Part shown: piece by piece, positions 8,992 through 21,957 of the stretch
How positions within the stretch are numbered: position 1 is the first letter of the stretch
Layout of the letters: each line of letters opens with the position of its first letter
Source of the DNA: Pirellulales bacterium
GTDB lineage: Bacteria > Planctomycetota > Planctomycetia > Pirellulales > PALSA-1355
Reading direction: 5' to 3'
Length of the DNA: 64,000 bases
Assembly (NCBI GenBank): GCA_022844125.1
Contig: JALHMI010000015.1
Span: forward strand, 124,001-188,000
Notes under the pieces: model-generated
What the model saw: only the letters and a program-made list of their open reading frames with translations
Told to the model about the DNA's origin: nothing
The model's database searches: none
Translations under genes and position numbers: made by a program

Positions 8992-9803
8992 GCGACCGCA
9001 CAACTCCACGGGAGGAGCCGACGATTCAGCAGCTCTTCGACCTCACCGGCCGAGTCGCGCTGGTTACCGGCGGCGCGGGACACCTGGGCACCGCCATGTG
9101 CCGCGCGCTCGCCGAAGCCGGCGCCACGGTCGTGGTCACCAGTCGAGACGCCGAGCGTGCGCAAAGCGTTGCAACGAAGCTGCCACGGCCAGGCGAAGGG
9201 AACCATCAGGGCAGCGCTCTCGACCACTGCAATCCCGAGGATGTTCGCCGTTGTCTCGCGGAGACGATCGCAAAGACTGGCCGGATCGACATTCTCGTCA
9301 ACAACGCTCACGAGCCGGTCGCGCATGACCTGACGAGTATCACCGCGGAGGGGTTCAGCCGCCAGCTTCAGAATGCGACCGGTTACTTCGAGCTCGCGCG
9401 GTTCGTTCATCAATATGCCGTCGAACGGAAAGCGCCGGCGAGCATCGTGCTACTCGCTTCGATGTACGGGCTGGTGGGTTCTTATCCGGACGCTTACGAG
9501 GGCATCAGTCCCGCCAACTCGGTTGCCTATCAAACCTTGAAGGGCGGGATCATTCAGATGGCTCGGCACTTGGCCGTGTACTGGGCGGCCGATCGCGTGC
9601 GGGTGAACTGTTTGAGCCCGGGGCCGTTTCCCGGCGCTGCAGCTCCGGCGGCACTCGTGGAACGGCTGTGCACCAAGTCGCCACTCGGCCGGATGGGCAC
9701 GCCGGCGGAGCTGAAGGGCGCGATCGTGTTTCTTGCCTCCGACGCGAGCAACTACATGACGGGTCAGAACCTGGTGATCGATGGCGGTTGGACAGCCTGG
9801 TAG
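8988..9803 (+). CDS. Short-chain dehydrogenase/reductase (SDR)
   Basis: Classical SDR oxidoreductase, 271 residues from the ATG at 8988, which overlaps the previous stop (ATGA). The cofactor motif is TGGAGHLG near residue 25, the NNAH segment occupies the NNAG position, and the catalytic set is Ser in LLASMYG with Tyr and Lys in YQTLKGG. The C-terminus shows the usual GQNLVIDGGW. The long segment GSYPDAYEGISPANSVAYQ between Ser and Tyr is longer than the common spacing but seen in gluconate-dehydrogenase-like SDRs. It probably oxidises a polyol or sugar acid within this operon. Substrate unknown. Confidence 0.9.
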   Translation: MSDRTTPREEPTIQQLFDLTGRVALVTGGAGHLGTAMCRALAEAGATVVVTSRDAERAQSVATKLPRPGEGNHQGSALDHCNPEDVRRCLAETIAKTGRIDILVNNAHEPVAHDLTSITAEGFSRQLQNATGYFELARFVHQYAVERKAPASIVLLASMYGLVGSYPDAYEGISPANSVAYQTLKGGIIQMARHLAVYWAADRVRVNCLSPGPFPGAAAPAALVERLCTKSPLGRMGTPAELKGAIVFLASDASNYMTGQNLVIDGGWTAW

Positions 9804-9818
9804 AGAATTGGCGTACCC

Positions 9819-11171
9819 ATGAAAAGTCATCAACCAGTGGCGAGTTCGCGAGTTCCCAAATCGCTGGAGTTGTTCGAACGCGCGCTCAGACTGATTCCCG
9901 GCGGAACCCAACTGGTGAGCCGGCGTCCCAGCCGCTCCTCATATGGAGTTTCGCCCATCTATGCCGAACGTGCCAATGGCGCACGCTTCTGGGATGTTGA
10001 CGGACACGAGTACATCGACTGGATGAGCGGCATCGGCTCAGTACTGCTTGGCTACTGCGATCCCGTGGTCGACGATGCGGTGCGCGAACAGATCTCACTT
10101 GGCACGATCTATTCGATCAACCACGAGCTCGAAATCGAGCTGGCGGAAGCGCTGTGCCGCCACATCCCTTGCGCGGAGATGGTGCGCTATGCCAAGTGTG
10201 GCGGCGAGGCCTGCGCGATCGCCGTTCGCATCGCGCGCGGTGTCACCGGCCGAGATCGGGTTCTGTTCTGTGGCTATCACGGCTGGCATGACTGGTACCT
10301 GGCTGCCAACCTGGCCGAATCGTCAGGGCTCGATGCGCATTTGCTTCCCGACATCGAGCCGATCGGCGTACCGCGCGGACTTGCCGGCACGGCCGTACCG
10401 TTTGCGTACGGTGATGCGGCGGCCCTCGGCGAACAGTTGGGCCAGCACCGCGGGCAGATCGCCGCCATCATCATGGAACCACTCCGCTCGGAACTGCCAC
10501 CAGACGGATACCTTGCCGCCGTGCGCCAGCTCGCAACCAAGCACGGAGCCGTGCTGATCTTCGACGAAGTGTCTGCCGGTCTGCGGTTCGGCATGGGCGG
10601 CGCGCAGGGTGCACTAGGCGTCACGCCCGACATGGCCGTCTTCGCCAAGTCGATTTCGAACGGTTATCCCATGGCAGCGGTTGTCGGCCGACGCGAAGTA
10701 ATGGAGCCGGCAGCACAGATGTTCATTTCCAGCACCTATTGGAGCGACACGATCGGGCTTCGAGCAGCGCTGACCACCTTGCGAGAAGTTGAGCGGCGCG
10801 GCGTGCCTCATCAACTGGAGGTTTTCGGCGCGAAGCTGAAAGCTCGCTTGAATGCGATCGCCAGCGAGGTCGGTCTGCCGGCCGTCTGTTGCGGCGTGGA
10901 TGTGCACCCGCATCTCGAATTCGAGCTGGATAACCCACAGCTTGTGCCGGCCGTCAAAACGCTGTACATCCAGGAGATGGCCAAGCGCGGCTGCCATGGC
11001 AACACGGCCTTCTACCTGAACGCGGCTCAAGGTGACGCCGAGCTCGAACAAACGGCCGCTGCCGTGCGCGAAGTCTTTGCGATCATTCGTGATGGTCTCG
11101 CGGCGGACAACGTTTCACAGCTCCTCGAGTGCGCGCCGCAGCACGACGCCTTCCGCCGCCTCGTTCGCTAG
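9819..11171 (+). CDS. Class III aminotransferase, glutamate-1-semialdehyde aminomutase-like
   Basis: PLP-dependent fold-type I enzyme, 450 residues. Early segments (LIPGGTQLVSRRP, YIDWMSGIGSVLLGY) resemble HemL-type proteins. The cofactor region shows KCGGEACAIAVRIARG, YHGWHDWY, IFDEVSAGLRFG with the pyridine-binding Asp, and VFAKSISNGYPMAAVVG with the Schiff-base Lys at residue 277. It is unlikely to be the housekeeping hemL, because it lies in a catabolic operon and replaces several HemL-typical stretches. It could transaminate or isomerise an amino-substituted intermediate, which with the D-threonine-aldolase-type enzyme suggests a nitrogen-containing substrate. It starts 15 bases after the SDR stop. 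Confidence 0.87.
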   Translation: MKSHQPVASSRVPKSLELFERALRLIPGGTQLVSRRPSRSSYGVSPIYAERANGARFWDVDGHEYIDWMSGIGSVLLGYCDPVVDDAVREQISLGTIYSINHELEIELAEALCRHIPCAEMVRYAKCGGEACAIAVRIARGVTGRDRVLFCGYHGWHDWYLAANLAESSGLDAHLLPDIEPIGVPRGLAGTAVPFAYGDAAALGEQLGQHRGQIAAIIMEPLRSELPPDGYLAAVRQLATKHGAVLIFDEVSAGLRFGMGGAQGALGVTPDMAVFAKSISNGYPMAAVVGRREVMEPAAQMFISSTYWSDTIGLRAALTTLREVERRGVPHQLEVFGAKLKARLNAIASEVGLPAVCCGVDVHPHLEFELDNPQLVPAVKTLYIQEMAKRGCHGNTAFYLNAAQGDAELEQTAAAVREVFAIIRDGLAADNVSQLLECAPQHDAFRRLVR

Positions 11172-14973: not shown

Positions 14974-15768
14974 TCAGTGACCTCTCACTCCTCGCGGTGG
15001 GCCGGGCACGAACGCGTTGGTTCTCGCCTGATAGGCCGCGTACTCTGGCCGCCGCTCGGTAATCGTCTTCTCCAGTAGCGAAACGCCGGACACCTTCAGT
15101 AGCAGGACCGTCATGGCCAGCGGGCTGAGAATCGTCCACCAGGCGCCGCCGGCAGTGGCGATCAGGTATAACCCCCACCACACGCAGGCGTCTCCAAAAT
15201 AGTTCGGATGCCGCGTATAGCGCCACAGCCCCCGGTCCATCACCCGGCCGCGATTGGACGGATCGCGCTTGAACTCAGCGAGTTGCCAGTCGCCCACAGA
15301 CTCGAAGACGAAGCCCACGACGAACAGCGTCACGCCAAGCGCATCGAGCCAGCCGAGCGGCTGCATCTCCCGATCAACGACTGCCACCTGAATTGGCAAA
15401 GACACGAACCACAGGATTGCCGCCTGCAGCCAGAACACGGTAAACAGACTCAGCCACCAGAATCGTTGGCCCTGGTGTGCTCGCATCGCCTGGTAGCGGC
15501 GGTCTTCGCCGTGCCCCCAATTTCGCCGGAGGAGGTACACCGAAAGCCGCAGTCCCCACACCGCCGTCAGCAGGCCAAGCAGCAGCCCACGGTTCGTCAC
15601 TGGCTGATTCAGTGCGAGTGCCACCGCCGCCACGATTGCAAACCCCGTCCCCCAGAACGGGTCGACGATGCTCGCGTCGCGCAGACGAACGCTCAGCGCC
15701 CAGAGCGCGGCAAGCACGCCGAGCACCACGACCAGCGTCGACAACAGCGTGATAGCAAGCGGCGACAT
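14974..15768 (-). CDS. DUF1295 membrane protein (steroid 5-alpha-reductase-like)
   Basis: Integral membrane protein, 264 residues, about six helices, of the DUF1295 family related to 3-oxo-5-alpha-steroid 4-dehydrogenases. The C-terminal hallmark is visible: GLWRYTRHPNYFGDACVWWGLYL, then EKTITERRPEYAAYQARTNAFVPGPP. It is the last gene of the cluster with two CFA-type methyltransferases, DUF1365 and an FAD amine oxidase. It follows the second methyltransferase by nine bases. In other bacteria this neighbourhood is linked to light or singlet-oxygen responses and to modified membrane fatty acids, so it may reduce a lipid intermediate. That role is inference. Confidence 0.88.
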   Translation of the reverse strand: MSPLAITLLSTLVVVLGVLAALWALSVRLRDASIVDPFWGTGFAIVAAVALALNQPVTNRGLLLGLLTAVWGLRLSVYLLRRNWGHGEDRRYQAMRAHQGQRFWWLSLFTVFWLQAAILWFVSLPIQVAVVDREMQPLGWLDALGVTLFVVGFVFESVGDWQLAEFKRDPSNRGRVMDRGLWRYTRHPNYFGDACVWWGLYLIATAGGAWWTILSPLAMTVLLLKVSGVSLLEKTITERRPEYAAYQARTNAFVPGPPRGVRGH

Positions 15769-15777
15769 GGCGAGGTC

Positions 15778-16839
15778 CTACCTTCCTCGTGGCGCATTGG
15801 GCGCGAGCAAACTATGTGTCACGAACCACTCCTGGCCGTCTCGATAGCCAAATAGCTCGGCCACCGCCAGAAAGAACATCCGCCAGCGCTGAAACCAGCG
15901 CCGCGCATCGTGGCCATAGACGCTGCGTAAGACTTCCATAGCAGTATCACGATTTGCATCGAGATTTGCCAGCCAGGCTTCGGACGTACGCTGGTAGTGA
16001 TCGCCGCTCCAGGTCCACTGCCGCTCAACATGCATATGGCGGTTGAACCGCGTGAACAAGTCGGAGCGCGGCATGATCCCACCGGTAAAGAAGTTGCGCG
16101 CCATCCAGTCTGCCTGGCCGCCGGATTCGAACGGATAGGCGAATTCACGATGGCAGAACACATGCGCCAGCAACCTGCCGTCGGGCTTGAGCCAACCAGC
16201 GATCCTTTCAAACAGGGCTTCATAGTTTCGTAAGTGCTCGAACATTTCCACGGATACAACGCGGTCGTAGCTTCCCGGCTTCGGCGGAGCATAGCTGTTG
16301 ATGTCGGCTGTCACGACTTGCAAGTTCGTCAGGCCCCGGCCGGCAGCCTGCCCTTCAATAAACCGCCGCTGGGAGTGCGAGTTCGACATCGAGGTGATTC
16401 GGCTCGCGGGATGTTGCTCGGCCATCCACAGCGAGAGCGACCCCCAGCCGCAGCCCAGCTCCAGCACTTCCTGACCGTCCGCAAGCTCGGCATGCTCGCA
16501 GGTCTGCTTGAGCGCGGCCACTTCCGCCTCAGCCAGCGTAGTCGTCGCGTTGGGCCAATAGCAGCAACTGTACTTTCGCCGCGGCCCCAGCACCGTGGCG
16601 AAGAATTCTGCCGGCACCTCGTAGTGCTGCTCGTTCGCCGCCTCGGTCTCGAGCGCAATCGGACCTCTCGCCAGCGACTCGAGAAACGCCATCTGGCCTC
16701 CGCTGGCGGCCTGGATGCGGGCCGCCTTGAGACGCGACTGGCACAAGCGGCGGATTGCCAGACGCGTCACCATGTCAGGCACAAATCGGCGTTCAACCGC
16801 CTCGATTCCCAAGCCTGTCGCAAACTCGAGCGTGTTCAT
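15778..16839 (-). CDS. CFA-like SAM-dependent methyltransferase (second paralogue)
   Basis: Class I SAM methyltransferase of the cyclopropane-fatty-acid synthase superfamily, 353 residues from the ATG at 16839. SAM motif I is VLELGCGWGSLSLWMAE, followed by MSNSHSQRRFIEGQ and VVSVEMFEHLRNYEALFERI. It is more divergent from true CFA synthases than the adjacent gene and fits a group that always accompanies it in FAD-oxidase/DUF1365/CFA clusters. A start at 16941 is open but would overlap the upstream gene by 89 bases, so 16839, 14 bases from that gene's end, is preferred. It may methylate an unsaturated acyl chain, possibly in branched or furan fatty acid synthesis. Confidence 0.85.
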   Translation of the reverse strand: MNTLEFATGLGIEAVERRFVPDMVTRLAIRRLCQSRLKAARIQAASGGQMAFLESLARGPIALETEAANEQHYEVPAEFFATVLGPRRKYSCCYWPNATTTLAEAEVAALKQTCEHAELADGQEVLELGCGWGSLSLWMAEQHPASRITSMSNSHSQRRFIEGQAAGRGLTNLQVVTADINSYAPPKPGSYDRVVSVEMFEHLRNYEALFERIAGWLKPDGRLLAHVFCHREFAYPFESGGQADWMARNFFTGGIMPRSDLFTRFNRHMHVERQWTWSGDHYQRTSEAWLANLDANRDTAMEVLRSVYGHDARRWFQRWRMFFLAVAELFGYRDGQEWFVTHSLLAPNAPRGR

Positions 16840-16852
16840 GGTCGTCCGCGGC

Positions 16853-18181
16853 TCATGCCGTCCCGTAATGTGGTTGCGAGATGCCTGCGGCAGCCTTGCG
16901 ATCCAGCGTTGCGCTTGCACTGCGCGTGAGCAAAAGTGCATCTCGCCGACAGGCGGAATTGTCGAACACCAGTTGCACGACGCTCACCTGCCGTTCCTCG
17001 AAGCCAGCCTCACAATAACATAAATAATAACGCCACAACCGGATCAGTCGCTCGGTGTAACCGAGTGTGCGAATCTCCGGCAAACGAGCTTCGAAGTTCG
17101 CACACCAGCGTCGCAACGTTTCCGCATAATGCGGGGCGAAATCCTCAAGCTGCACGCAGCGCAAGCGGCTCGCGCGACCGGCCGATTCGAGCAGCGCGGC
17201 TGCCGAGGGGAGCGACCCGCCCGGGAACACGTGCTTGCGTATGAAGTCAACCGATGCGAGATACTTGTCGTAGTCGCGCTCCGGCATCACGATGCCTTGC
17301 AGGACCATCGACCCGGAGGGCTTGAGAAGTTCGCCGCACTTGCGAAAGAACGCGTCCAAAAACTGTGGCCCCACGGCTTCGATCATCTCGATCGACACGA
17401 GCTTGTCGAACTGCCCGGTGAGATCCCGATAGTCGCAATTCAGCACCGTGATCTGATCGGTAAGTCCTGCTGCCTTAACACGCTGGCAGGCGAGTTCGTG
17501 CTGCTCGCGAGAGATCGTCGTGGTGGTCACGTGGCAGCCATAGTGCCGGGCCGCGTGCAGTGCGAGTCCGCCCCAGCCGGTGCCGATTTCCAGAACGCGA
17601 TCGCCCGGACGCAGGTCGAGCTTACGGCACACGCGGTCGAACTTCTCAAGGGAAGCTTCACGCAACGATGCGCTCCACTGCGGAAAGACACCGCTCGAAT
17701 AAGCAAGCGTGTCGTCCAGCCAAAGCTGGAAGAAGTCATTCCCCAAATCGTAGTGCGCGCCGATGTTGCGGCGGCTGCCGCGGCGCGTGTTCGATCGCCG
17801 CCAATGGCCCAAACGGGCTCCCGCCTGCATCAGCCAGCACCAACCGCGGTCGAGCCGGCTGGCGGCGTGGCGATTGCGTACGAAGAGACGCATCAGCCCC
17901 ATCAGATCGTCGCATTGCCACTCGCCCGCGATGTAGGACTCGGCTGCCCCCAGGCTGCCGCCGAACGCTACTCGTCGGTAGAACCGCTGGTCGTCCACGC
18001 GAACCGAGATCGGCGCCCCGCCTGCTCCGAGCATCTGGATGCCAGCCGGGTCGAACAGTCGCACGCTTCCGCCGCGAAGTGCCGCGAGCTTGCTCAGCAC
18101 GAGCGCACGTACCGACCGGTTCCAGGGCCCAAACGCAATTTGGGAGAGTCGCTTTTGCTCGGAAGCCGCATTCATTTTCAT
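16853..18181 (-). CDS. cfa: Cyclopropane-fatty-acyl-phospholipid synthase
   Basis: Transfers a methylene or methyl group from SAM to the double bond of acyl chains in membrane phospholipids; peripheral membrane enzyme. From the ATG at 18181 it has 442 residues. The N-terminal substrate domain carries FGGSLGAAESYIAGEW. The catalytic part shows AHYDLGNDFFQLWLDDTLAYSSG, the SAM motif VLEIGTGWGGLALHAARHYG, TTISREQHELACQRV and the family's VSIEMIEAVG. A TTG start at 18199 is possible but lies inside a palindrome, so the ATG is chosen. It sits between DUF1365 and the second methyltransferase in one operon. Confidence 0.92.
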   Translation of the reverse strand: MKMNAASEQKRLSQIAFGPWNRSVRALVLSKLAALRGGSVRLFDPAGIQMLGAGGAPISVRVDDQRFYRRVAFGGSLGAAESYIAGEWQCDDLMGLMRLFVRNRHAASRLDRGWCWLMQAGARLGHWRRSNTRRGSRRNIGAHYDLGNDFFQLWLDDTLAYSSGVFPQWSASLREASLEKFDRVCRKLDLRPGDRVLEIGTGWGGLALHAARHYGCHVTTTTISREQHELACQRVKAAGLTDQITVLNCDYRDLTGQFDKLVSIEMIEAVGPQFLDAFFRKCGELLKPSGSMVLQGIVMPERDYDKYLASVDFIRKHVFPGGSLPSAAALLESAGRASRLRCVQLEDFAPHYAETLRRWCANFEARLPEIRTLGYTERLIRLWRYYLCYCEAGFEERQVSVVQLVFDNSACRRDALLLTRSASATLDRKAAAGISQPHYGTA

Positions 18182-18183
18182 GG

Positions 18184-18200
18184 ATTGATACCGTATCAAT
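18184..18200. repeat. Perfect 17-base palindrome before cfa
   Basis: ATTGATACCGTATCAAT is a perfect 8-1-8 inverted repeat. It covers the last codons of the DUF1365 gene and ends three bases before the cfa start codon. It could be an operator, an mRNA hairpin over the ribosome site, or chance. Confidence 0.5.
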
Positions 18201-18987
18201 TGGGACTGAGGGATGTCCGATTTAAGCTACTAGCCGTGAGTGTGGCGGGATGCGGAATAAAAGGTACCCCGCGCATCCGGATAAGAAACGCCTGCCAATA
18301 GATCCCCGCGATCACTTGCGCGGTCATCAGCGGATAACGAATCAGCGACCAGATCCGCCGCGCGCGGGTGAGCGGTTTCCGGTGGAGTGAAAGGATCGCA
18401 CTGAACAATCTGCCATCTGCACTCTCGCAACCGATGGCTACTGTCAGCCGCTCGCCGGGAATGGTCAGCCGCCAGTCGTACTCCAGATCCATCGGCAAGA
18501 ACGGGGACACGTGCAGCTGCTTCTGGCTCCGCTCGCGCAGCACGTGCTCATCATCGCCCCGGTCCCGCAGGTCGATTGCGTAACAGTGCCGTTCACCCCA
18601 GGGAGTATTGTTCACTTCCGCCACCACGGCTTGCAGGACAGTTCCGTGTGCGTCGAAACAGTAGTACAAGCTGATCGGGTTCATCCCGACGCCGAAATAT
18701 CGAAAGTGCGTCAGTAACCGGATCGGACCTTCAGGGCGCCAGCCGAGGCGCCCTTCAACCAGTTCTCGCACCGAATCGTCGAGCGGTTGCTCCGACGGAC
18801 CGAGATGATCGCGACGCCGAAAGCGTGCAACGGCCGGCCACTTCGTGGACCACAGCCCACGGCGTCCGAAAGTGGTTTCGATTTCGGCCAGATCCACGTA
18901 CACCATGAACAGCGGGAAGCTGAACGCACGCTCTACGAGAGCGAAGCGGCGGTGGCGGACGCGGCCCTCGTAAAGGCAACTGTGCAT
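18196..18987 (-). CDS. DUF1365 domain protein
   Basis: Protein of unknown biochemical role, 263 residues from the ATG at 18987 (MHSCLYEGRVRHRRF, the standard start of this family, with SFPLFMVYVDLAEI following). Further conserved segments are RLLTHFRYFGVGMNPISLYYCFD, VAEVNNTPWGERHCYAI and FLPMDLEYDWRLTIPGERL. It overlaps the upstream FAD oxidase gene by 55 bases, a strong sign of coupled translation. DUF1365 is nearly always next to an FAD amine oxidase and a CFA synthase, as here, and is presumed to act on modified acyl chains. A longer reading from 19065 adds 26 unusual residues and is rejected. Confidence 0.9.
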   Translation of the reverse strand: MHSCLYEGRVRHRRFALVERAFSFPLFMVYVDLAEIETTFGRRGLWSTKWPAVARFRRRDHLGPSEQPLDDSVRELVEGRLGWRPEGPIRLLTHFRYFGVGMNPISLYYCFDAHGTVLQAVVAEVNNTPWGERHCYAIDLRDRGDDEHVLRERSQKQLHVSPFLPMDLEYDWRLTIPGERLTVAIGCESADGRLFSAILSLHRKPLTRARRIWSLIRYPLMTAQVIAGIYWQAFLIRMRGVPFIPHPATLTASSLNRTSLSPN

Positions 18988-20231
18988 GGTTGGTTGCTCA
19001 ACTCCAGGGTTCGGACTGCCGCCAGTCCGCTGTTGACGCCATCTTCGTGAAATCCGGAACCCCAATACGCTCCGCAGTAATGCGTGCGATCCCTTGAGAT
19101 CTCAGGATGCCGGCGGTGCGCCGCGATCGCCGAGCTGGAATATAGCGGATGATGGTAGGTGAACTGGCGAATCACCTTCGCCGGATCGATCTGCCCCTCG
19201 TCGTTTAGCGTGACGAACAAATCCTCCGAGGCATCCAGCCGCTGTAAGCGGTTCATCCAGTACGTGACAGTTACGTCCGTCGGCGCGTGAGCCGGGACGC
19301 GATAGTTCCAACTGGCCCAGGCCCTGCGACGCGCCGGCATCAGGGAGGCGTCCGTGTGCAGTGTCGCCAGGTTCTTTTGATACGGGAACGCGCCGAGAAC
19401 TTCGCGCTCTGCAGGCGTCGGGTCCCCCAGCATGCGCAGCGCATCGTCCGCATGAGCGGCGACGACGACACGTTCGAACTCGAAGTGGCTGTCGTTCACC
19501 TGAACGCTCACGCCACGCTCACTGCGCAGGATTCGTCGCACAGGGCTATTCGGCAGGACCTTGAAATGCCGGGCTCGCAGCATCGCGTCTAGATATCGCC
19601 GTGCGCCGCCCGTGACCGTCCGCCACTGTGGGCGATCGCGCAGGGAAAGGAGACCGTGATTCGCAAAGAAGCGGGCAAACGAGCTGGCGGGAAACTCGAG
19701 CATCCGCCCCGGCGGCGCCGACCAGATCGCGGCGCCCATCGGCAGCAAGTAATTGCCAGTGAACTCTGGACCGAACCCTTCCGTGCGGAGAAAGTCACCC
19801 AGCGACGGGCCAGCGGCATCGTCCATATCCAGTAGCTGTAAAGCCGCGCGGTTAAACCGCAGGATCTCGCGCAGCATGCGATAGAACGCCGGTCGCAACA
19901 GGTTACGTCGTTGGGCGAACAAGCCGTTGAGGGAACTTCCACAGTACTCCCAGCCGCTCGCCTCCGATCGGACGCTGAAACTCATGTCGCTCGGTTGCGA
20001 GTCAACGCCAAGTTCTCGGAGCAAACGGCAGAAGTTTGGATAGGTTCTATCATTGAACACGATGAAGCCGGTGTCGACGGCAAGCTGCTCGCCACCGACT
20101 CGCACGTCCACAGTGTTCGTGTGGCCACCCAGGCGCGAATCGGCCTCAAGCAATGTCACGTCGTGACGCTCCGCCAGCGTGTAGGCGGCCGTCATTCCAG
20201 CGATTCCCGAACCAACAACGGCGATTTGCAT
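18933..20231 (-). CDS. FAD-dependent amine oxidase family protein
   Basis: Flavoprotein oxidoreductase, 432 residues. The dinucleotide-binding motif is at the extreme N-terminus: IAVVGSGIAGMTAAYTLAERHDVTLLEADSRLGGHTNT. Family segments VDTGFIVFNDRTYPNFCRLL and the C-terminal GSGFHEDGVNSGL place it in the branch that precedes DUF1365 and CFA synthase in many bacteria. It probably dehydrogenates or oxidises a lipid-linked acyl chain together with these partners. It starts about 55 bases after a strong hairpin that separates it from the fasciclin gene, so it may be expressed by read-through or from its own promoter. Confidence 0.9.
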   Translation of the reverse strand: MQIAVVGSGIAGMTAAYTLAERHDVTLLEADSRLGGHTNTVDVRVGGEQLAVDTGFIVFNDRTYPNFCRLLRELGVDSQPSDMSFSVRSEASGWEYCGSSLNGLFAQRRNLLRPAFYRMLREILRFNRAALQLLDMDDAAGPSLGDFLRTEGFGPEFTGNYLLPMGAAIWSAPPGRMLEFPASSFARFFANHGLLSLRDRPQWRTVTGGARRYLDAMLRARHFKVLPNSPVRRILRSERGVSVQVNDSHFEFERVVVAAHADDALRMLGDPTPAEREVLGAFPYQKNLATLHTDASLMPARRRAWASWNYRVPAHAPTDVTVTYWMNRLQRLDASEDLFVTLNDEGQIDPAKVIRQFTYHHPLYSSSAIAAHRRHPEISRDRTHYCGAYWGSGFHEDGVNSGLAAVRTLELSNQPCTVAFTRAASATAASLS

Positions 20232-20348: not shown

Positions 20349-20882
20349 CTATTTGGGCAGCAGAACGGTATCGATCACGTGGATGACGCCGTTCGAGCAG
20401 ACGATGTCTGCCTTCACAACCTTGGCGTCATTTATCTTCACGCCGTCAGTCGCGTCGATGGAAACGCTTTGCCCCTGGACCGTTTTGGCCGAGTCGAGCT
20501 TCACGACATCGGCAGCTTTCACCGCGCCCGGTACGACGTGGTAGGTCAGGATCGCGGTCAGCTTGTCTTTGTCTTTAAGCAGGGCTTCGACCGTTCCTTC
20601 CGGCAGCTTGGCGAAGGCTTCGTCCGTGGGCGCAAACACCGTAAAGGGGCCTTTGCCTTTCAAGGTGTCGACCAGACCGGCAGCTTTCAGGGCCGCGGCC
20701 AAGGTCTTGAACGAACCGGCAGCGACGGCCGTGTCGACGATGTCGCTGGTGGCGGTCTTGGCCACGGCAACACTGTGAACCTTGGTGCCGGCGCACTTTT
20801 CTCCGGCCAGCGCCGGGTTGGCCCCCGCGGCGAGCGATAGCGTGACGGCAGCAGCGAGCAGCGAGCGAGATGTGATGGACAT
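20349..20882 (-). CDS. Fasciclin (FAS1) domain protein
   Basis: Exported protein of 177 residues with one FAS1 domain. The signal peptide is [20 protein letters not shown]...ALA. FAS1 hallmarks are present: [25 protein letters not shown], and the terminal [18 protein letters not shown] good ribosome site, AAGGAG, lies seven bases before the ATG. The domain mediates adhesion in eukaryotes; bacterial single-domain members are often part of light, singlet-oxygen or sigma-E regulons next to the FAD oxidase/CFA cluster. It diverges from the MerR-type regulator, and its promoter carries the same 16-base site as the regulator's promoter. Confidence 0.92.
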
Positions 20883-20917
20883 GACGAACTCCTTGTGGAT
20901 TGTCGAACCAGCTATAA

Positions 20918-20933
20918 ATCGTTCAAAACGTTC
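20918..20933. promoter_or_regulatory. Shared operator-like site, fasciclin promoter copy
   Basis: ATCGTTCAAAACGTTC matches the site at 21062-21077 in 15 of 16 bases. Its core is an imperfect inverted repeat ATCGT-TCAAA-ACGTT. It covers the inferred transcription start of the fasciclin gene, as expected of a repressor site. Confidence 0.6.
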
Positions 20934-20938
20934 ACGTA

Positions 20939-21034: not shown

Positions 21035-21063
21035 TGGACATAAGATCGCCGACACTCTATAAT
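21035..21063 (+). promoter_or_regulatory. Predicted sigma-70-type promoter of the MerR/B12 regulator
   Basis: TGGACA (21035-21040), exactly 17 bases, then a perfect TATAAT (21058-21063). This is the clearest promoter in the window. The shared operator-like site begins inside the -10 box, so the regulator would block its own promoter. Confidence 0.7.
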
Positions 21064-21077
21064 CGTTCAAAACGATC
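21062..21077. promoter_or_regulatory. Shared operator-like site, regulator promoter copy
   Basis: ATCGTTCAAAACGATC contains the perfect inverted repeat ATCGT-TCAAA-ACGAT. It spans the end of the -10 box and the predicted start site. The near-identical copy at 20918-20933 lies in the divergent fasciclin promoter. Confidence 0.65.
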
Positions 21078-21090
21078 TTCTGTGCAAGCC

Positions 21091-21957
21091 ATGAAGCACC
21101 TTTTGACCCCCAAGCAAGTTGCCCAAGCCATTGGTGTCAGCGAATCCTCGCTTAAACGCTGGTGCGATCGCGGCGCGCTGAGCATGGTCCGCACTGCGGG
21201 GGGCCATCGCCGTCTCTCGCTCGACGATGTCGTGGCCTTCCTGCGGCAATCAGGGCATCAGATTGTTCGGCCCGAACTGCTGGGATTACCGCCCGCCCGC
21301 GGTCAGTCACCCGCGACAATCGACCGTGGTCGTGAAATGGTTCGCCAAGCGCTCCTGGCGGGTGAGGATGCCCAGTGCCGGCGGATCGTGCTGGATCTCT
21401 ATTTGGCCGGCACGAGCGTTTGTGAAATTGGCGACCAGGTGTTGGCCGGCGCATTTCACGACATCGGCGACGCCTGGGAGTGCGGCGATATCTCGATCTA
21501 CCGCGAGCGGCGCGGTTGTGAGATCGCGATCCATGCCCTGCACGACTTGAGCGGCGCACTCCCACAGCCGCCACTCGACGCACCGCGAGCCATCGGCGGG
21601 ACGCTCGAGAGCGATCCCTATCAATTGCCGACGTTGATGGTCGAACTCGCCTTGCGCGAAGCCGGCTGGCAGGCGACGTCGCTCGGCACGCTCCTGCCCG
21701 CCCTCACATTGATGGATGCCCTACGCGAGAACAAGCCGCGCCTGCTGTGGCTCAGCGTCTCCAGTATTCCGGACGTCGAGACGTTTCTCGCGGATTTCGC
21801 TGCCTTGCACGCCGCGGCGACAGAGCAGGGGACCGCGGTCGTTGTCGGCGGCCGGGCACTCTCGGAGGAGCTTCGCCGGCAGATGAGCTACAGCGCGTAC
21901 TGCGACACGCTCCGTCACATGGTCTCTTTTGCACAGTCGCTGCGCCAGCCGGCCTGA
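21091..21957 (+). CDS. MerR-type regulator with degenerate B12-binding domain (CarH/LitR-like)
   Basis: Transcription regulator, 288 residues from the ATG at 21091. It has an N-terminal MerR helix-turn-helix (LTPKQVAQAIGVSESSLKRWCDRGALSMVRTAGGHRRLSLDDVV is split here as LTPKQVAQAIGVSESSLKRW and GGHRRLSLDDVVAFL), a four-helix B12-binding-2 cap (about 75-160) and a Rossmann-like B12-binding domain (about 165-285). CarH-type photoreceptors hold adenosylcobalamin with a W-x9-E-H motif and a lower axial His. Here the first reads W129-x9-E139-R140 and the second position is Y177 (LESDPYQLP), so both histidines appear absent. It faces the fasciclin/lipid cluster, has its own strong promoter, and the shared sites suggest it represses both. 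Whether it still senses light or cobalamin is doubtful. Confidence 0.88.
   Translation: MKHLLTPKQVAQAIGVSESSLKRWCDRGALSMVRTAGGHRRLSLDDVVAFLRQSGHQIVRPELLGLPPARGQSPATIDRGREMVRQALLAGEDAQCRRIVLDLYLAGTSVCEIGDQVLAGAFHDIGDAWECGDISIYRERRGCEIAIHALHDLSGALPQPPLDAPRAIGGTLESDPYQLPTLMVELALREAGWQATSLGTLLPALTLMDALRENKPRLLWLSVSSIPDVETFLADFAALHAAATEQGTAVVVGGRALSEELRRQMSYSAYCDTLRHMVSFAQSLRQPA

Follow-up and report, generated by a model that had tools for sequence, protein, structure and literature searches.

Tyrosine stands in place of the lower axial histidine of CarH/LitR photoreceptors in the MerR-type regulator encoded in the window (the whole 64,000-nucleotide stretch of Pirellulales DNA analyzed), and comparison with related proteins indicated that it is the conserved state of a Planctomycetota-wide clade. 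A sequence-only reading of the same DNA had described the regulator as a CarH/LitR-like protein that appears to have lost both cobalamin-contacting histidines, wording that undersells this conservation. The clade is probably a variant of the CarH/LitR kind that works like one, yet it fails two of the defining residues, and its proteins are probably working sensors of a new variety and not broken ones because the remaining pocket, the DNA target, and the light-damage gene neighborhood have been kept. As a whole, our reading is that the regulator would be a CarH/LitR-kind repressor of photo-oxidative-protection genes, with (A/T)CGTTCAAA repeats over the promoter and a pocket that still holds a ligand, released by light or oxidation. 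We give this reading a probability of about 0.4.

The positions of the gene, its motifs, and its neighbors are listed in Table 1. An in-frame GTG at 21082 is an alternative start that would add three amino acids. HTH_17, MerR_1, and B12-binding_2 (27.4 bits, cut-off 23) passed their Pfam cut-offs in the 288-residue protein, while B12-binding scored 30.5 bits against a cut-off of 32.1, which was reached when neighbors were included. The domain order from Pfam and the predicted structure was a MerR-type helix-turn-helix (HTH), a B12-binding_2 cap, and a Rossmann B12-binding domain, which bore out the CarH/LitR-like architecture first proposed. The score for the NCBIfam CarH equivalog (NF052513), 38.8 bits against a cut-off of 400, says little, since none of 14 control genomes passed either.

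Table 1. Features of the regulator locus (positions in the window)
Feature	Coordinates	Strand	Details
DUF1295 membrane protein	14974..15768	-	Pfam E 3e-79
Second SAM methyltransferase, CMAS family	15778..16941	-	Pfam CMAS E 5e-43
Cyclopropane-fatty-acid-synthase (CFA) family protein	16853..18199	-	Pfam CMAS E 9e-82
DUF1365 protein	18196..19065	-	Pfam E 1e-74; true start inside open frame
FAD-dependent amine-oxidase-type oxidoreductase	18933..20231	-	Pfam Amino_oxidase; recurrent neighbor
Fasciclin-domain gene	20349..20882	-	Pfam Fasciclin E 6e-43; divergent from merR
Putative operator copy 1, TAAATCGTTCAAAACGTTCA	20915..20934	+	PWM 31.5 bits; between divergent fasciclin and merR genes
Predicted sigma-70-type merR promoter, TGGACA-N17-TATAAT	21035..21063	+	11/12 matches, 0.3 expected in shuffles
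Putative operator copy 2, ATAATCGTTCAAAACGATCT	21059..21078	+	PWM 23.6 bits; overlaps -10 of merR promoter
merR-type regulator gene with CarH-like B12-binding domain	21091..21957	+	288 aa; ATG 21091 to stop 21957, no internal stop
N-terminal DNA-binding domain, residues 4-53	21100..21249	+	Pfam HTH_17 E 3.9e-10
Cap motif W129-x9-E139-R140 (CarH EH to ER)	21475..21510	+	W129 = 21475-21477; E139-R140 = 21505-21510
Lower-ligand motif D175-x-Y177-x2-P180 (classic D/E-x-H-x2-G/P)	21613..21630	+	D175-P176-Y177 = 21613-21621
GxxxP element G199-P203	21685..21699	+	invariant, 169/169 rows
S222-x-S224 nucleotide-tail motif	21754..21762	+	41 residues past P180
G253-G254 of B12-binding motif	21847..21852	+	

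The reading frame, the coordinates, and the residues W129, E139, R140, and Y177 were all where the sequence-only reading had placed them. In alignments with sequences of solved structures, R140 lay opposite the His of the EH pair in both CtMerR of Chloracidobacterium thermophilum (8jbs) and TtCarH, and Y177 lay opposite the His of G-D-L-H in CtMerR and of G-E-R-H in TtCarH. The lower-ligand stretch reads D175-P-Y177-Q-L-P180, so the lower axial His is absent. E130, directly after W129, occupies the position of TtCarH H132, and the light-state-ligand His is therefore also missing. There was no His between residues 152 and 239, and other histidines that might stand at the replaced positions were looked for across the domain in 169 homologs without finding a conserved substitute, the best position being 151 (His in 89 of 169). 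The tail of the published B12 motif, D/ExHx2G/Px41SxT/Vx22-27GG (PMC9304148), was found as 41 residues, S222-V-S224, 28 residues, and GG, departing from the motif in its third residue, which is Ser, and in its last gap, which is one residue longer than the range.

Both replacements extend well beyond this one protein. Residue 177 was Tyr in 152 of the 169 homologs (Ser in 5, Ala in 4, Phe in 2, Asp in 2, His in 1, and three others once each), and residue 140 was Arg in 129, His in 39, and Ala in 1. Other positions were kept nearly throughout: W129 in 163, E139 in 166, D175 in 164, G199 and P203 in 169 each, and the GG pair in at least 167. The same genome encodes a second copy of the regulator, 62% identical (L049, G000:C6:186000-204000, gene 9187-10143), which shares both replacements, adjoins a fasciclin gene, and has operator-type sites upstream. 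By this comparison the replacements exceed chance or drift, because Tyr is found in 152 of 169 homologs and the identical pair of replacements in a paralog of 62% identity. A recent loss, or one confined to a single genome, was ruled out by the spread of Tyr177 across the phylum and by this paralog.

The homologs came from 222 loci, in which 226 frames with E < 1e-30 were reduced to 169 distinct sequences, including the window protein, once duplicates and contained copies were dropped. Because the profile by which rows were scored and selected was one of D-x-Y proteins (34 of the first 48 sequences), lower-scoring relatives are under-sampled in these counts. A family match at E ≤ 0.001 was present in 48 of 97 related genomes. 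At E ≤ 1e-15 the family profile picked up 179 of 392 genomes of the phylum, with the weaker matches often limited to the B12 domain. A relative was encoded in 340 of the 353 stretches of one contig scan; the best 80 of these were used, 79 from Planctomycetota and one unplaced, and a Gimesia MAG was among the carriers.

A tree was inferred from 100 rows, comprising 10 outgroup sequences, all later-fetched sequences, all sequences departing from R/Y, and every third of those remaining, with the motif columns excluded. A branch with SH-aLRT support of 95 separated the outgroup, with canonical CarH-like proteins, from the rest, in a tree made by a quick method with several long branches and a root placed by hand. 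Six changes were needed on it at residue 140 and 13 at residue 177. Many members outside the window protein's class still have the EH His, as do a few within it (L027-L029 and L040), while almost no member of the clade has the lower His. We read the tree as placing the change of the lower His to Tyr at the root of the clade or close to it, with Tyr lost again here and there afterward, and the change of the EH His to Arg on the lineage leading to the window protein's class; on this reading of the alignment, the two losses of His are not one event. The phylum also yielded seven full-length MerR-CBD proteins with lower scores (L222 and L235-L240), six with E-H and a lower His and one, L238, with neither.

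Several members departed from the common pattern. One protein inside the Tyr clade (L190, 5040-6032) was the only one with His at 177, and its EH pair and D-A-H make up the full canonical set, which could be ancestral or a reversal. Tyr177 was lost in a paralog branch of six rows, all in family f7, in which the other motif positions except 174 were kept (W, E, G, P, S, and GG). Five loci of this branch (L036 3445-4461, L043 16905-17891, L044 15607-16566, L045 1294-2421, and L046 4890-5864) had Ser or Ala at 177 and no operator copy upstream. A search of plasmids for relatives gave two matches, one of them a canonical LitR-type protein (EEH, ERH) on plasmid pTH2c of Rhizobium sp. TH2 (L241), divergent from an adjoining fasciclin gene; the MerR gene is missing from the gene table of that plasmid.

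Apart from the histidines, the pocket was strongly conserved. The published light-CBD signature consists of GxxW, EH, GxxH, and GxxxP (PMC11796333), and 12 of the 13 positions of this signature and the B12 motif fell within the top 25 of 208 domain positions by conservation (hypergeometric p 6e-12), with residue 174 the sole exception. The other signature residues (G126, W129, E139, D175, G199, P203, S222, and G253-G254) were among the most conserved of the domain. Spacing was equally constant in the 152 D-x-Y rows: W-x9-E in 150, P-x41-S in 151, and 26 to 29 residues before GG in all 152. Because W, E, GxxxP, SxS, and GG are kept at the classic spacing, the pocket may well have retained a ligand, though these residues may instead reflect fold or dimer contacts, since the Tyr-less f7 paralogs keep them too. 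The sequence-only reading went further, to a regulator that no longer binds B12, which the reported failure of TtCarH H177A to bind B12 favors but which the kept pocket leaves as a possibility.

The supply of adenosylcobalamin (AdoCbl) was considered as a discriminating test and dropped as uninformative. In 73 genomes chosen as complete (56 with the regulator gene and 17 without a match), the PduO-type adenosyltransferase PF01923 was near-universal (70 of 73), so AdoCbl is expected to be available in nearly all; PF02572 was found in five, four of them above the cut-off. One genome with the regulator, listed as 99% complete (G004), had neither family and was not counted as B12-free because it encodes other proteins with B12-binding domains.

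A model of the regulator was predicted with AlphaFold (pLDDT 90.1) from a 77-row alignment that combined the window protein with 76 of the best 80 loci, with L109, L121, L140, and L146 excluded. Foldseek placed CtMerR first (E 7e-16), TtCarH next, and then the photocobilins. With VIA-align, the best solved match was the B12 domain of CtMerR (8jbs; Z 26.9, rmsd 2.4, 221 residues aligned), followed by photocobilins (Z about 25), the SCHIC domain of AppA (4heh, Z 20.8), and TtCarH (Z about 20.4). CtMerR (8jbs/8jbt) was also the best PDB match by sequence (family profile E 2.6e-55). Reported to be light-responsive with AdoCbl and a tested AdoCbl photoreceptor (PMC11796333), it shares with the window regulator the MerR-type HTH, four-helix cap, and Rossmann domain, both GxxW and GxxxP, and a similar SESS-KRW DNA-reading stretch. 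It has E-H and a lower axial His204, whereas the window regulator has E-R and Y177; like the window regulator, it is without the equivalent of TtCarH H132 (W-R). The likeness to class I CarH/LitR, represented by TtCarH (5c8d), lies in domain order, W-x9-E, SxS...GG, and association with light-type genes. Unlike TtCarH, the window regulator is without the EH His, the H132 equivalent, and the lower axial His; its DNA-binding stretch reads SSLKRWCDRG against EVLRQWERRYG, and its family has its own putative operator.

The sequence-only reading had also linked the regulator to a lipid cluster of a light or singlet-oxygen type, and the neighborhoods agreed with this. Among 95 loci in which the family member is flanked by 4 kb or more on each side, 25 had, no farther than 5 kb away, at least two of FAD oxidoreductase, DUF1365, and CFA synthase. 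Neighbors were clustered by single linkage and named from Pfam, and those within 4.5 kb included FAD oxidoreductase (25 loci), CFA (24), DUF1365 (24), TspO/SDR (18), fasciclin (17), epimerase (16), photolyase (7), and ferrochelatase (6). At least one of these eight light-type neighbors was present in 62 of the 95; the 34 control loci (121 kb), most of which were shorter, yielded one ferrochelatase. The fasciclin gene of the window is likely the first gene of the controlled run, and in 12 of the 95 loci a fasciclin gene lay no more than 400 bp from the regulator. The lipid run was also found beside distant EH/Tyr members (L199, L210, L214, and L218). In Vibrio cholerae, blue light is reported to induce CFA synthase and photolyase-family genes (PMC5241685).

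The family's operator-like element is a 9-bp direct repeat, (A/T)CGTTCAAA. The sequence AATCGTTC was common to 58 of 166 member upstream regions, compared with 0.5 in shuffles, and a matrix built from these regions had the core AAA(A/T)TCGTTCAAA(A/T)CGTTCA. Upstream regions passed 8 bits in 118 of 166 cases; in one shuffled set the maximum was 10.1 and the ninth decile 0.5. In 1.886 Mb of loci there were 245 sites of at least 17 bits, compared with 0 for the reversed matrix, and 213 of the 245 were near a family gene, an enrichment that is partly circular because the matrix was built from those regions and in which not all sites are independent because some loci are near-copies of each other. 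The other 32 sites are not circular, and several were at fasciclin or epimerase genes. Grouped by residues 140 and 177, a site was present in 84 of 118 R/Y regions, 23 of 30 H/Y, 6 of 9 H/other, 1 of 8 R/other, and 0 of 1 A/Y, and no operator-type site of 14 bits was found in eight loci of canonical or other MerR-CBD genes.

The two copies in Table 1 were the only sites of at least 11 bits in the window. A pattern search of the same genome with at most one mismatch matched the window, the paralog, and one further site (C14). This third site falls within an open frame, where Pfam gave no match for the region, and was judged to be chance. In 13 genomes many one-mismatch sites remain, and eight of these regions were read. 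In one complete genome (G008; L298 4190-5000), two 30-bit sites flank a fasciclin gene that is remote from the regulator and divergent from a peptide methionine sulfoxide reductase gene. Of the other seven regions, one had a 27-bit site inside a long open frame and six had 18- to 19-bit sites only, near which no open frame of at least 140 aa started.

The support for the reading of a light- or oxidation-released repressor is computational: the fold, the family-specific repeat, the neighborhood, and the kept pocket with Tyr for His. The (A/T)CGTTCAAA repeats would be the binding site over the promoter, and binding there would repress the regulator's own gene and the divergent run from fasciclin through FAD oxidoreductase, DUF1365, CFA synthase, and methyltransferase to DUF1295. 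The pocket between the four-helix cap and the Rossmann domain would hold a ligand, for which a corrinoid bound without any His is the likeliest candidate; Tyr177 would face the cobalt as a phenolate ligand or a spacer, and W129, E139, and P203 would still meet the upper ligand. Light or oxidation of the pocket ligand would change the oligomer state and release the DNA. A more specific form of this proposal, which we hold tentatively, is a phylum-wide class of corrinoid-binding repressors with cobalt held with or over Tyr (a Tyr-on or ligand-free B12 photoreceptor), the same operator, and photochemistry unlike that of CarH, switching on genes for membrane lipids and defense against photo-damage. 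Counted against a corrinoid are the change of EH to ER in the class of the window protein, the Tyr-less f7 branch that keeps the pocket, and the failure of His mutants: TtCarH H177A is reported to bind no B12 (PMC8221060, PMC4557120), which speaks against corrinoid binding by the Tyr clade, and M. xanthus CarH H193A to be inactive (PMC4557120). In favor of a corrinoid, Mmp10 is described as binding cobalamin although it has no His motif, a Leu lying beneath the cobalt (PMC8828468).

It is also possible, if doubtful, that the regulator resembles CarA or class II LitR, with an apo dimer that binds DNA, no ligand in the pocket, and a signal that arrives through a partner (an antirepressor or a LOV protein) or through oxidation of the protein. 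CarA of Myxococcus xanthus, a CarH relative with a broken B12 signature, is reported to function without B12 (PMC9304148), and class II LitR of Pseudomonas (PplR/PmlR2), reported as B12-free, regulates PhrB, UfaM, FolE, and CryB, with a short LOV protein acting as its inhibitor (PMC9758184), so that a similar set of photolyase and UfaM-type lipid genes is controlled there, a further point against the corrinoid. The loss of the lower His, essential in TtCarH, and the retention of the other pocket residues in Tyr-less paralogs fit such a mechanism. The routes differ, however: CarA is described as having lost the Trp and kept the EH and His motif (PMC9304148), and class II LitR as without the Rossmann domain (PMC9758184), whereas the window family is the reverse of CarA, with W kept and His lost, and retains the Rossmann domain (by model and Pfam), E, GxxxP, SxS, GG, and the spacing. 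None of the ten neighbor clusters given to Pfam contained a LOV or antirepressor gene.

Tyr is a common heme ligand, and a swap of tetrapyrroles, in which heme, protoporphyrin, or another porphyrin is bound through Tyr177, would parallel the heme of AppA SCHIC, a B12-type fold with altered ligand residues. The structural match to SCHIC and the recurrence of ferrochelatase and TspO/SDR genes nearby are in line with this, but the heme His of SCHIC is shifted by two residues, the Trp/Phe cap is lost, and a blocking long loop follows strand 3 (PMC9144470), whereas the window regulator keeps W129, has no His in the corresponding region, and aligns without a gap in this loop to cobalamin-binding CtMerR. 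We consider such a swap unlikely. Decay of the sensor part to a vestige, leaving a constitutive repressor, would account for the absence of both histidines, but it sits so poorly with the strong conservation of pocket positions across the phylum and with the motif shared by two paralogs of one genome that we regard it as very improbable.

In the available portions of the literature on CarH/LitR, B12-independent MerR proteins, Planctomycetes, and Tyr as a lower axial ligand, no description of this clade was found, nor was a published measurement on any Tyr-clade member. The published mining for B12 photoreceptors would miss the clade because its signature, as reported, demands both histidines (PMC11796333). 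The defined putative operator makes a direct DNA-binding assay feasible. The family serves as a natural test of which pocket elements are required, in which the lower ligand has become Tyr across the phylum and the EH His has been lost in one class and retained by many members beyond that class. Should the pocket still bind a corrinoid, the coordination would be new among B12 light sensors; if none is bound, the family would have reached B12 independence by a route other than that of CarA or class II LitR.
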